A stretch of DNA of 64,000 nt from positions 2,370,501-2,434,500 of the forward strand of contig JAHQIY010000001.1 in the NCBI GenBank assembly GCA_019054805.1, given 5' to 3'. The translations under genes and the position numbers were made by a program. This document shows positions 13,186 through 34,125 of this stretch, piece by piece. Position 1 is the first letter of the stretch. Every line of letters begins with the position of its first letter. The notes below the pieces were generated by a model that saw only the letters and a program-made list of their open reading frames with translations, made no database searches and was not told the DNA's origin. Source of the stretch: Brachionus manjavacas. Lineage: Eukaryota > Rotifera > Eurotatoria > Ploima > Brachionidae.

Positions 13186-13431
13186 TATTTTTTTAAAAAT
13201 TTTTTTTATTTTTTATGTATGAATTGAAAAAAATCAAAAATGAGATGAATTTTAATCAACAGACCAAAGAATTTTAATAAATTGCAATTAAAAAATTAAT
13301 TTTTGTTGAAATTCAAATTAAAACTTCTCAAATAAAACTGTTTAAGAAACAAACAATTTTTATGGCAAAATGCCGAATAATTTTTAATGAACAAAAATTA
13401 AATTTTTTTTTTTTTTTAAATAAATTCTTAC

Positions 13432-15064
13432 CATTGAACAGAGCTTCTTTTTTATTTTCATCCAAAATGTAATTGTATCGGTGAAAATTGTCAGTTTTTT
13501 CCAAATGGCTTAACTTTTTGGCTAAATCTATAAAAGAACTTTTGTCATCTCGCGTATTTTTCAGATTCCTTAAAGCCTTTTCATTTTCGGATAGTAAAAT
13601 TTTTTCAAATGAATCAATGTCAAGTTTTATATTTTTTTGAGCACAAAATTCCTGAATAAAGTCTATGGACACTTCTTCACCAGTTCCATCTCCTTTAAAC
13701 AATTTCCAAATTTGATCACCGGACAGTTCCGACGGAACACCGAGTTTTTTATGAAACGCTCTGCAATTTGACAAGAATTTTTAACTTTTGCCTTATACTT
13801 TTGATGCGTATCAATCACTATCTGCTTTATATAGTCACTACGCATGGCCAATTCTGGATACGCTGTCTTCAATGAATTTACCACTGTCATGACCAACTCG
13901 CATAAAAATTGAGATTCATTTTCAATATTGAAAACTTCTTTGGAAATTTTCAGACTTTTTAGGATTAAAAATTTCAAAAACCCCCCCAGTCCATTCCGAC
14001 TGGGAACCAGCCCGTCATTTATTGACACAGTTATTGATCTGGCAAAGTCACTCAAAGTTCTGTATGAGCATAAAATTGGATCATTAGCACCTAATTGAGC
14101 ATAGTGCGGTACATTTTGGCTTCGGGTGTAAATTTTCTCAAATAAAGGTATGAATAAATCAGTATCATAATTACTATGTAAATTATTGAGCACTGTAGTC
14201 AAACGTTCTAGGCCCATGCCGGTGTCAACTACTTGTAATGGAAGAGGGGAAAATTTTTAGGTCCAGTTCTATTATAATTCATAAAAACCAAATTCCACAG
14301 TTCAATGACTCTCTCTTGTCCTGCATTGACTAGTTGCCTGGCCTGAGTGAACTGCTCGGGTCTTGACAGCTGATTGACCATTCGGTCGTAGTGAATTTCG
14401 GTGCATGGTCCGCAAGGACCTACAGTGTCCATTTCCCAAAAGTTTGCTTTTGAATCAAATGGCAAAATTTGCCTCTCTGGTATTCCCAGTTTCAGCCAGA
14501 CGTTTTTTGATTTCAAGTCGGGTGCCAGACCAAGGTTGGCATCACCTGAAAAATAGGTAAAATACAATCCGTCTATATTCAGTTTATATTTGTTGACCAA
14601 AAGTTCTAGGGCTAGGTGACAGGCTTGTTCGTTGCCATAAGAACCGAATGACCAGTTGCCGAGCATTTCAAAAAAAGTATGGTGATACGTGTCTCTGCCA
14701 ATGTCTTCCAGATCGTTGTGTTTGCCTCCAATACGGATGCATTTTTGGGAATTGGCTACACCTATGTATTTATCTGTCTCGATTATGTCAGCTGGATCGG
14801 TCTCGCCCAGAATAATTGACTTAAATTGGTTCATTCCGGCATTTGTGAAGTATGTACCAGAGCCTTTTTTTGGCAATACCGAACTTGATTTTATGAATTT
14901 ATGTCTGTTCTCATGGCAAAAGAAGTCTATGAATGTTTGACGAACTTTTTCACTAGGCCAATCAAGGTTTTTCGCTGACACATATCTTCTGGCACTGATC
15001 GATTGCTCACTGTTTAGAATTCTGACTCTTTTAATACATTAGGTCTGATTTTTTGTCGTAACAT
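13432..15064 (-). CDS. AARS2: Alanyl-tRNA synthetase, mitochondrial, exon 1 (catalytic half)
   Basis: First exon of the AARS2 gene. It would supply the mitochondrial targeting peptide, the aminoacylation core and the start of the tRNA-recognition region that charges tRNA-Ala in mitochondria. Motifs are as in the duplicate, with HHTFFEMLGNWSFG intact. Three single-base deletions in homopolymers break the frame: a T run at about 15029-15032, an A run at 14250-14253 and a T run at 13745-13750. At each site copy A has the in-frame length, so comparing the copies gives one open exon of 1636 nt. That length leaves phase 1, which is exactly what exon 2 at 10446 needs: the junction reads Asn-Gly-Lys-Phe-Glu-Ala. 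Donor GTAAG at 13431. Consensus errors are likelier than independent decay. Confidence 0.8.
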
Positions 15065-23530: not shown

Positions 23531-23723
23531 TTTTTAATAAATCCTCTAATGCTACGCCACATAGATTTTATGCAATTGCGTAAAATTTTAATTGTTCTAT
23601 CATATTTTAAAGTCCTTGGAGACTAACAGAAAAAATGAAAATGGAGTACTTAATTGAAGTTTAAATTCAACTTAAATCCTTAATGCTTTTATCTATTTAA
23701 ATACAAATGCAAATACTTTTTTA

Positions 23724-24578
23724 GGGTCTAGTGGAAAATGTGAACAATTGTTCACAAAAAAATTTGACAATGAGTATCAAGTCCAAAATGTGAACATTTT
23801 GTCACATATTTGGTGACCAAAATAGATAAATAAAAAAATAAAAAAACTTTTCGAGTCCAGTTTTTATTTTTTGTGAACATTAATTTTAGAATAAAAGTTT
23901 AATTTTAAATGCAAATAAAAAATAAAAGATAAATACCAATTCATATTTTGATTAGTTTTTATGTTTTTTTGTCATATGCAACTTTACACCCTTGATGTTT
24001 TTCATTAATTCTCCACATAAATCACACGCTACAGGGTTTGCATGTTCGCTCAGTGCTGTTTTTACTACATTCAAAGTTTCTTGAGAAGTAGTAATTTCAG
24101 TCATTGCTTTTTCTCCTGCGTTTAGATTTAACACGCTTAATTTCTTATCTATTGTAATAAAATTCTCATTAAAACTCAACTCGGCATCACTATCTTGATT
24201 ATTTATTGGTGTATCATCGGATTTCGATTTAACTAAAGTTACGGATTCTAAATCAATTTTTTCATCCATAATTTTAACTCTTCAACTAAATAATTTTTTT
24301 TTGAATCTTGAATAGAATGATGAAATTTAAATTGTAATTTTTAGCTTAATCATAATGTTAAAGAATAAGAGTTAAAATAGGATTATAAAATAGTGTTTTT
24401 AAATTATTTTAATTTTTATTTTTTTAATCTAAAATTTGGTGAACATTTTTTTTTGTGACCAGCTTTTGGTCACCAAATATGTGACCAGAGATTATGTGAA
24501 CAAAATGTTCACATTTTGGACTTGATACTCATTGTCACGTTTTTTTGTGAACAATTGTTCACATTTTTCACTAGACCC
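23724..24578. mobile_element. TIR transposable element encoding a zinc-finger protein (element 1)
   Basis: An 855-bp element bounded by near-identical inverted repeats of about 85 bp starting GGGTCTAGTG. It is flanked by a perfect 8-bp target duplication CTTTTTTA (23716-23723 and 24579-24586). Each TIR contains the perfect 18-bp palindrome TGTGAACAATTGTTCACA, then further inverted GTGAAC/GTTCAC and GGTGACC/GGTCACC half-sites. An 8-bp duplication fits hAT, Merlin or MULE-like elements; the superfamily is not determined. The only coding content is the zinc-finger frame at 23952-24269. Confidence 0.85.
23952..24269 (-). CDS. Small single-C2H2-zinc-finger protein of TIR element 1
   Basis: An ATG-started frame of 105 residues inside the element. 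The first ~75 residues are acidic and Ser/Thr-rich, without a recognised fold. The C terminus is one C2H2 finger, CDLCGELMKNIKGVKLHMTK then KH (C-x2-C-x12-H-x4-H), ending just after the last His. The same architecture, with a different N terminus, occurs in the related element at 33514. No transposase domain is visible. It may bind the palindromic half-sites in the TIRs; that is a guess. It could also be a captured or relic N-terminal exon of a longer transposase. Confidence 0.6.
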   Translation of the reverse strand: MDEKIDLESVTLVKSKSDDTPINNQDSDAELSFNENFITIDKKLSVLNLNAGEKAMTEITTSQETLNVVKTALSEHANPVACDLCGELMKNIKGVKLHMTKKHKN

Positions 24579-24586
24579 CTTTTTTA

Positions 24587-33513: not shown

Positions 33514-33812
33514 TGGGGTCTAGTGGTTTATGAGAAGGTTTGTTCACTTATTAGGTGAACAATTCCTGTTCTCAGGTTTGGTGAACAATCTGTTCACGTA
33601 ATATTTTGTTCACCAATATGTGAACTGAAATAATTATTAAAAAAAAAAAATTTTGGTGACCAGAACGTACATTTGGTGAACAATTTTGAAATTAGGTGAA
33701 CTATCCTAGACTGAATGTGAACAATTCACGAAGAAAAAAAATTTTATTTTCGAATTCGATTTAAAAAAATATATATTTTAAAGTATCGTTGTGATATTTT
33801 TAATAAAAAAAT

Positions 33813-34070
33813 TTAGTTTTGTTTATGTGTTTTACTCATATGGCTTTTTAAACCTCTATCACCTTCAAAAAAACGACCACAAATTTTACATTCTATTGAA
33901 TTACATTTGCCACTGAAAAATTTTGTAATCTTTACTCTAGACACCTCGTTACAAGGTTTCGATTTGACTACATTTTCATATAGATTTGCTTTTAATTTTA
34001 TATTTTTAACTCCTAAATCAATGTTATCAATCGAATCTCGATTTTTTGATTCGACACAGTCATTTTCCAA
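33813..34070 (-). CDS. Single-C2H2-zinc-finger frame of element 2 (possibly decayed)
   Basis: About 85 residues ending in one C2H2 finger: CKICGRFFEGDRGLKSHMSK then TH (C-x2-C-x12-H-x4-H). Spacing and C-terminal placement match the protein in element 1, while the N-terminal sequences differ. There is no ATG upstream in frame; the frame opens after a TGA at about 34108. The start is therefore unknown, either an upstream exon or loss of the start. Confidence 0.45.
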   Translation of the reverse strand: MENDCVESKNRDSIDNIDLGVKNIKLKANLYENVVKSKPCNEVSRVKITKFFSGKCNSIECKICGRFFEGDRGLKSHMSKTHKQN

Positions 34071-34081
34071 ATCATCAATAT

Positions 34082-34125
34082 CACCATGACATCTTGTATT
34101 TTGTGTAATTCAAGATGTCATGGTG
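34082..34125. repeat. Perfect 15-bp hairpin
   Basis: CACCATGACATCTTG at 34082-34096 and its exact complement at 34111-34125, with a 14-nt loop. It lies just 5' of the element 2 zinc-finger frame. Confidence 0.85.

Follow-up and report, generated by a model that had tools for sequence, protein, structure and literature searches.

A one-finger C2H2 protein in an inverted-repeat element of the rotifer Brachionus manjavacas is very probably the remnant of an internally deleted Merlin transposase

What is a protein with a single C2H2 finger doing inside a short terminal-inverted-repeat (TIR) element that has palindromic sites in its ends and no transposase? The question arises in a window of 64,000 nucleotides (the whole stretch of DNA that was analysed) from the 114-Mb, 61-contig genome of Brachionus manjavacas. 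The initial annotation had described a complete element with an 8-bp target-site duplication (TSD) and ~85-bp TIRs, a palindrome in each TIR with further inverted sites, and an ATG-started 105-codon frame ending in one finger. All of this was borne out, the boundaries and sites being as follows:

23724 to 24578, minus strand (coding strand): whole element of 855 bp, non-autonomous and very probably Merlin-derived, recognized by its TSD, TIRs and family of copies
23716 to 23723, unstranded: left TSD CTTTTTTA, read directly (same letters as 24579-24586)
24579 to 24586, unstranded: right TSD CTTTTTTA, read directly
23724 to 23808, unstranded: TIR adjoining the 3' end of the frame (95% inverted match to 24493-24578)
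24493 to 24578, unstranded: TIR upstream of the frame (95% inverted match to 23724-23808)
23739 to 23756, unstranded: 18-bp palindrome TGTGAACAATTGTTCACA in the first TIR, its 6-4-6 core at bp 17-32 from the element end
24546 to 24563, unstranded: 18-bp palindrome TGTGAACAATTGTTCACA in the other TIR, same register
23740 to 23878, unstranded: GTGANC site array of the left end (5 of 13 sites)
24439 to 24562, unstranded: GTGANC site array of the right end (8 of 13 sites)

The termini read from the sequence are GGGTCTAGTG and CACTAGACCC, and the TIRs measure 79 bp without gaps (96% identity) or 85 to 86 bp with a gap (95%). In a survey of the Merlin superfamily, such elements are defined by TSDs of 8 or 9 bp and TIRs of 24 to 462 bp starting with GG (PMC8101967); the 8-bp CTTTTTTA, the GG start of GGGTCTAGTG and the length of ~85 bp match this definition, and the DDE_Tnp_IS1595 domain is absent from the window element itself. 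The exact 18-mer TGTGAACAATTGTTCACA occurs at 37 places in the 114-Mb genome, versus 0 for its reversed control. All 13 GTGANC sites lie in the two 260-bp ends and none in the middle (shuffle mean 0.38, maximum 4, 300 shuffles), for a pattern that was picked only after the data had been looked at. The commonest single 6-mer, GTGAAC, occurs nine times and does not exceed the shuffle maximum for any GC-containing 6-mer (11), so that significance depends on the GTGANC pattern and its recurrence across families.

The frame between these ends can be divided as follows, the assignment to a transposase resting on the comparisons given below:

23952 to 24269, minus strand: 105-codon frame, very probably an in-frame internally deleted Merlin transposase (ATG at 24269, stop at 23952-23954)
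24249 to 24269, minus strand: codons 1-7, aligned with the transposase start (alignment; compare L031 and L024)
23955 to 24248, minus strand: codons 8-105, corresponding to the transposase C-terminal acidic linker and finger (compare L015, L069 and L070)
23961 to 24026, minus strand: single C2H2 finger, residues 82-103 (from the sequence; Pfam zf-C2H2_2 weak, E = 0.033, below cut-off)

The finger residues follow the pattern C-x2-C-x12-H-x4-H, and a predicted structure of the protein alone was uninformative (mean pLDDT 37.6).

The element is repetitive, with at least 131 match pieces in the genome (best 40 of 72 candidates scored) and at least 150 matches to the small protein (best 150 of 257 candidates scored). 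Perfect 8-bp TSDs flank 11 of 12 family copies checked at both ends, and the twelfth (L017), in which the alignment stops 2 bases short, also has one once its end is shifted by 2. To survey the frame, 24 distinct copies covering it wholly or partly were taken from loci L001 to L038 (genome matches given a locus number; repeat fetches of the same places and the other-subfamily loci L023, L027, L028 and L036 were dropped). Three of the 24 have an uninterrupted frame between ATG and stop and retain all four finger residues; in others, such as L003, L012 and L014, the frame is open and the ATG or a finger residue is missing. Variable sites showed no excess at third codon positions (positions 1, 2 and 3: 21, 23 and 24 informative; 31, 22 and 25 singleton). 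Shared variants comprised 57 nonsynonymous (N) and 13 synonymous (S) changes, for a neutral expectation of 0.80 N, and those present in at least three copies 19 N and 7 S, which leans below 1 without being significant (omega ~0.67, P = 0.33). On a tree of the 18 copies with more than 290 of 315 columns (L015, L024 and L031 also left out), internal branches carried 21 N and 5 S (expected N fraction 0.82, P = 0.80), a test on 26 changes that weak selection could escape; terminal branches carried 59 N and 18 S, again leaning below 1 and not significant (omega = 0.74, P = 0.30). Tree-based change density was 103 of 315 inside the frame and 112 of 332 outside, and did not reproduce the deficit seen in one other count (175 frame variants versus 226 predicted from the non-coding rate). 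Within the power of these 24 copies, the small frame is decaying neutrally, with no sign of selection keeping it. The suggestion that a small protein is kept inside otherwise non-coding elements is therefore not supported; loss or neutral decay of the frame in most copies, the outcome that the initial annotation had set against its own proposal, is largely what the examined copies show.

To find longer relatives, the end pattern GGGTCTAGTG was searched genome-wide (67 forward and 61 reverse places, versus 13 and 21 for the reversed control), and relatives were picked among the matches listed, on contigs up to C15. L066 is an element of 2,455 bp with GGGTCTAGTG ends, an 8-bp TSD (AAAAAATG) and 114-bp TIRs; it encodes a DDE_Tnp_IS1595 domain (E = 5.1e-11) and then, farther along that strand in the 3' direction, a run of acidic residues and a finger frame. 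In L070 and its near-copy L076 (TSDs GAAAATAA and AGTAAATT), one unbroken frame of 507 and 470 codons, respectively (stop to stop), runs from the DDE domain (PF12762; E = 3.9e-20 in L070 and 1.4e-19 at the L076 place, C6:1230486) to a C-terminal finger; candidate D-D-E blocks were read by eye in L070 as EIDES, SDSWSSY and TNKIE. Among the finger-bearing copies read, only these two have a continuous frame. The two parts lie in different frames in L066, L069, L072, L077 and L078, where gene structure is uncertain and introns or decay may be the cause. PF12762 scored above cut-off in pieces of L066, L069, L070, L071, L073, L077, L078 and L079, and just below it in L083 (25.9 versus 27). By coordinates only, a transposase and a finger lie close together on the same strand at C15:1864273/1863453, C7:5371851/5372611, C3:3964154/3964691, C3:1220176/1221183 and C3:393370/394311. 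Genome-wide, PF12762 gave 66 matches at E ≤ 0.01, tandem arrays included. These arrays consist of decayed Merlin transposase pieces, at C1:2487026-2508796 (seven matches ~3.35 kb apart) and C7:79893-82016 (four matches exactly 628 bp apart). A separate observation concerns L027 and L028 (C3:1622297-1625608 and C3:1613198-1616506), related Merlin-derived elements that point in opposite directions ~9 kb from each other and have matching flanks, a layout like that of an inverted duplication.

Two other candidates for an autonomous partner were rejected: inward-facing end pairs among the nearest copies listed span ~0.6 to 1.1 kb, except for a ~2.3-kb composite on C3, and a long frame near a finger match on C17 is by eye a Ty3-like polyprotein. 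Pfam-A scans of 17 proteins returned no transposase domain of hAT, MULE or P at E ≤ 1, and a scan with the L070 protein found no relatives in viral contigs. The search for a longer autonomous relative yielded longer Merlin-encoding relatives and, among the places looked at, no full-length copy of the exact window subfamily. The parent is inferred from sister families and from three copies of the window family itself. L024 and L031 retain a transposase N-terminus upstream of the finger tail (matching L069 at 39% over 87 amino acids and 34% over 70, respectively), and in the alignment their opening codons coincide with those of the small frame, such that the window ATG sits over the transposase start (ATG in L031, changed in L024); L015 has a longer acidic linker in a 176-codon frame. 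The N-terminus retained in L024 and L031 identifies the window frame as seven start codons joined to the acidic linker and finger. That the frame might be a piece of a standard transposase had been raised as a contrary outcome, and the longer copies largely bear this out, the transposase being of Merlin type.

A related deletion can be read from two near-identical elements. L067 (1,123 bp, TSD CAGTAGTC) matches L069 (2,399 bp, TSD AAAACTAT) in two blocks, one of 406 bp at 99.0% and one of 721 bp at 99.7%, between which a single ~1.27-kb stretch of L069 is missing, with a 4-bp overlap at the join. It too has a small frame with one finger; the ATG is only a few bases from the join and upstream of the presumed L069 transposase start. 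The small frames of L067 and of the window family most likely arose from independent deletions. Another derivative, L068, carries transposase N-terminal sequence and no finger match, so that retention of the finger is not general among derivatives.

The finger belongs to a wider set of Merlin tails. Across nine finger tails (two of one family), both cysteines and the last histidine are present in all nine and the first histidine in eight, being Tyr in L072. In a DDE-region tree of 17 loci (19 minus L024 and L031, both short of alignment columns), L071, L073 to L075 and L079 to L083 formed one group (local support 1.0) apart from the finger-bearing copies; rooting was by midpoint only, and another root could nest this group among them. 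The L071 tail reads KRGRPP (AT_hook E = 0.33, below cut-off), and basic or AT-hook-like tails were also read in L073 (KKRGRKK), L079 (VGRPKK), L080 and L083. In L074, L075 and L082, near-copies of L073, the tail is frameshifted, and L081 showed no tail of this kind. R3H matches in the C-terminal region of the Merlin transposase were as follows:

L083:905-1720, minus strand: R3H match, E = 1.8e-7, above the Pfam cut-off
L071:852-2324, minus strand: R3H match, 0.0018, below cut-off
L077:662-1384, minus strand: R3H match, 0.014, below cut-off
L079:734-976, minus strand: R3H match, 0.16, below cut-off

The parent clade thus adds a C-terminal finger, or an AT-hook with R3H matches, to Merlin. No title returned by full-text searches dealt with a C2H2 finger in a Merlin transposase, and within that title search the clade is a Merlin variant not found in print.

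Both groups share the placement of a 6-bp site near the element end. The site starts at bp 17 in twelve families (L066, L069, L070, L071, L073, L077, L078, L079, L081, L027, L041 and the window family; in L027 it is bp 16), and an inverted partner usually follows across a gap of 3 to 5 bp; the twelve are mutually related and not independent draws. In ten families with known ends, the inverted 6-4-6 arrangement peaks at bp 17 to 32 (summed 5'-end score 42; null mean 24.9, maximum 29, 300 shuffles), and other gaps with the same centre score similarly. L027, with an end one G shorter and no matching TSD, has half-sites spaced by 4 bp at one end and 5 bp at the other. The arrangement is 6-3-6 at the same place in L071, in L079 and at one end of L081; for L079 and L081, whose TSDs have one mismatch each, the sites come from inspection by eye. 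The partner half is absent at one end of L070, L077, L078 and L081, a second palindrome at bp 24 of L073 outscores that at bp 17 (6 versus 5), and no family ends were found for L083.

The sequence of the site differs between families. GTGANC is in excess in the ends of seven of the eight finger-bearing families (9 to 24 sites versus ≤1.3 expected; 0 to 4 in the middles), and L066 ends carry GATAAC in its place (22 versus 0.25 expected). GTGANC was counted in two families of the other group, L071 and L073, and does not occur in their ends; a single base separates the L081 site ATGACC from GTGACC and the L073 site GTGGAC from GTGAAC. The register is thus common to both groups, whose site sequences tend to differ with no sharp line. 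A common register argues against the finger being needed for the palindrome, and the tendency of the sequence to differ leaves room for the finger to shape sequence preference. We rejected the bp-17 site as proof of finger binding, the site being present also in families with no finger seen. Binding of the palindromic sites by the finger is possible, as a property of the full transposase, and we would suggest tentatively, at somewhat less than even chance, that the C-terminal finger helps to bind the dispersed GTGANC sites. Families that differ in site at a fixed distance lend themselves naturally to asking which domain of the transposase determines end specificity.

Taken together, these comparisons make it very probable that the window element is a non-autonomous internal-deletion derivative of a Merlin element (IS1595-type DDE), and that its frame is a transposase remnant that has decayed neutrally. 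The N-terminal region of the parent transposase would have been rich in cysteine, followed by a DDE domain, a long acidic linker and, at the C-terminus, a single C2H2 finger. One internal deletion would have removed nearly all of the coding region and kept both ends, the start codon and the last ~100 codons in frame, leaving a product of 105 codons that joins the first seven of the transposase to linker and finger. Mobilization of the copies presumably depended on a full-length transposase acting in trans, which recognized the TIRs, probably through the 6-bp sites, whose fixed register is itself observed, and the small frame would then have decayed as neutral sequence. Of the roles offered in the initial annotation, an accessory factor is not supported, and the relic of a split transposase comes close, with one large internal deletion in place of a split.

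Other readings account for parts of this evidence. The in-frame fusion retains a start codon and finger, and dense sites lie in the same element, as would suit a working trans-acting regulator like KP, a product of deleted P elements, its finger binding the arrays and competing with transposase; however, three intact copies of 24, shared branches with no significant synonymous excess and a derivative (L068) that has transposase N-terminal sequence and no finger match make this quite improbable. A more elaborate scheme, in which one Merlin branch reads GTGANC-type TIR arrays with a C2H2 finger, a related branch uses a basic or AT-hook tail and other sites, and deletion derivatives release a finger protein that occupies the arrays and dampens transposition until it decays, also seems to us unlikely. 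Where the DDE and finger parts lie in different frames, as in the five loci named above, the finger protein could be a second, separate gene of the autonomous element, a DNA-binding partner beside the catalytic protein. The single unbroken frame in L070 and L076 speaks against this, as do the alignment of the small frame's first codons with the transposase start and the start of the L067 small frame at a deletion join, and we regard it as highly improbable. Similar lone fingers are also present at other places in the genome, one of them C-terminal in the Ty3-like polyprotein L063 (L063:4567-6201, minus strand, integrase by eye) and of the general type of the Merlin tails, and the finger of the small frame might on that basis have been captured from a gene of the host or of another mobile element. 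The finger tail is, however, common to several diverged Merlin families and so was not captured by the window element, which leaves this reading with hardly any probability; an ancient capture by an ancestor of these families is possible.

On the reading of the small protein as a transposase remnant, it is a worked case of an apparent accessory gene arising from one deletion in a transposase, and several known systems offer comparisons. KP and other deleted P elements encoding repressors are alike in that their transposase frame has lost an internal part and retains a candidate DNA-binding domain. KP itself keeps the transposase N-terminus. A KP-type repressor calls for a frame that is kept in deleted copies, and here 3 of 24 are intact and changes are neutral within the power of the data. 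A review describes, for P, a truncated repressor with the N-terminal THAP domain retained (PMC7776569), in contrast to the window frame, which keeps the C-terminal finger and shows no sign of retention or function. Galileo, of the P superfamily, has long TIRs with repeated short sites, as here, and its authors suggested that multiple THAP-domain sites give the transposase specificity (PMC3688188); it differs in transposase superfamily and DNA-binding domain, and its binding was shown by footprint, the sites described here being candidate binding sites.

With the Merlin superfamily (IS1016/IS1595-related), our full-length relatives share DDE_Tnp_IS1595, GG-starting TIRs and 8-bp TSDs, as defined in the survey (PMC8101967). 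They differ in having an acidic linker with a C-terminal C2H2 finger, or a basic or AT-hook tail, some with an R3H match. The word "C2H2" is absent from the main text of that survey, which does describe Symbiodinium Merlin copies with a C-terminal zinc-binding domain on the transposase; that domain is a ZZ zinc finger in some copies of one family, in contrast to the C2H2 finger of several families here (PMC8101967).

The window holds a second element, which had been said to repeat the plan of the first:

33516 to 34083, minus strand: incomplete second element, Merlin-derived, comprising the left TIR and the finger frame and matching the family copy in L041 (890 bp) at 91% over bases 1-568 of that copy
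33813 to 34109, minus strand: 98-codon open frame of this element, ending in a C2H2 finger (79% identity over 95 residues to the tail of the L072 relative)

The left TIR and finger frame agree with that claim. The element starts at 33516, however, its right part and right TIR are not present in the window, and its frame has no ATG before the finger, the first codons extending past the family match that ends at 34083. The zf-BED profile, a finger type known from hAT, matched this frame weakly (E = 0.018, 15.5 bits versus a cut-off of 20.6); zf-C2H2 matched better (E = 0.0016), also below cut-off. L064 and L065, longer copies of this family considered as transposase carriers, gave no transposase match.

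Elsewhere in the window, the same protein pieces, which we take to be alanyl-tRNA synthetase, occur twice on the minus strand, at 1015-2475 and 13328-15038, suggesting a local gene duplication.
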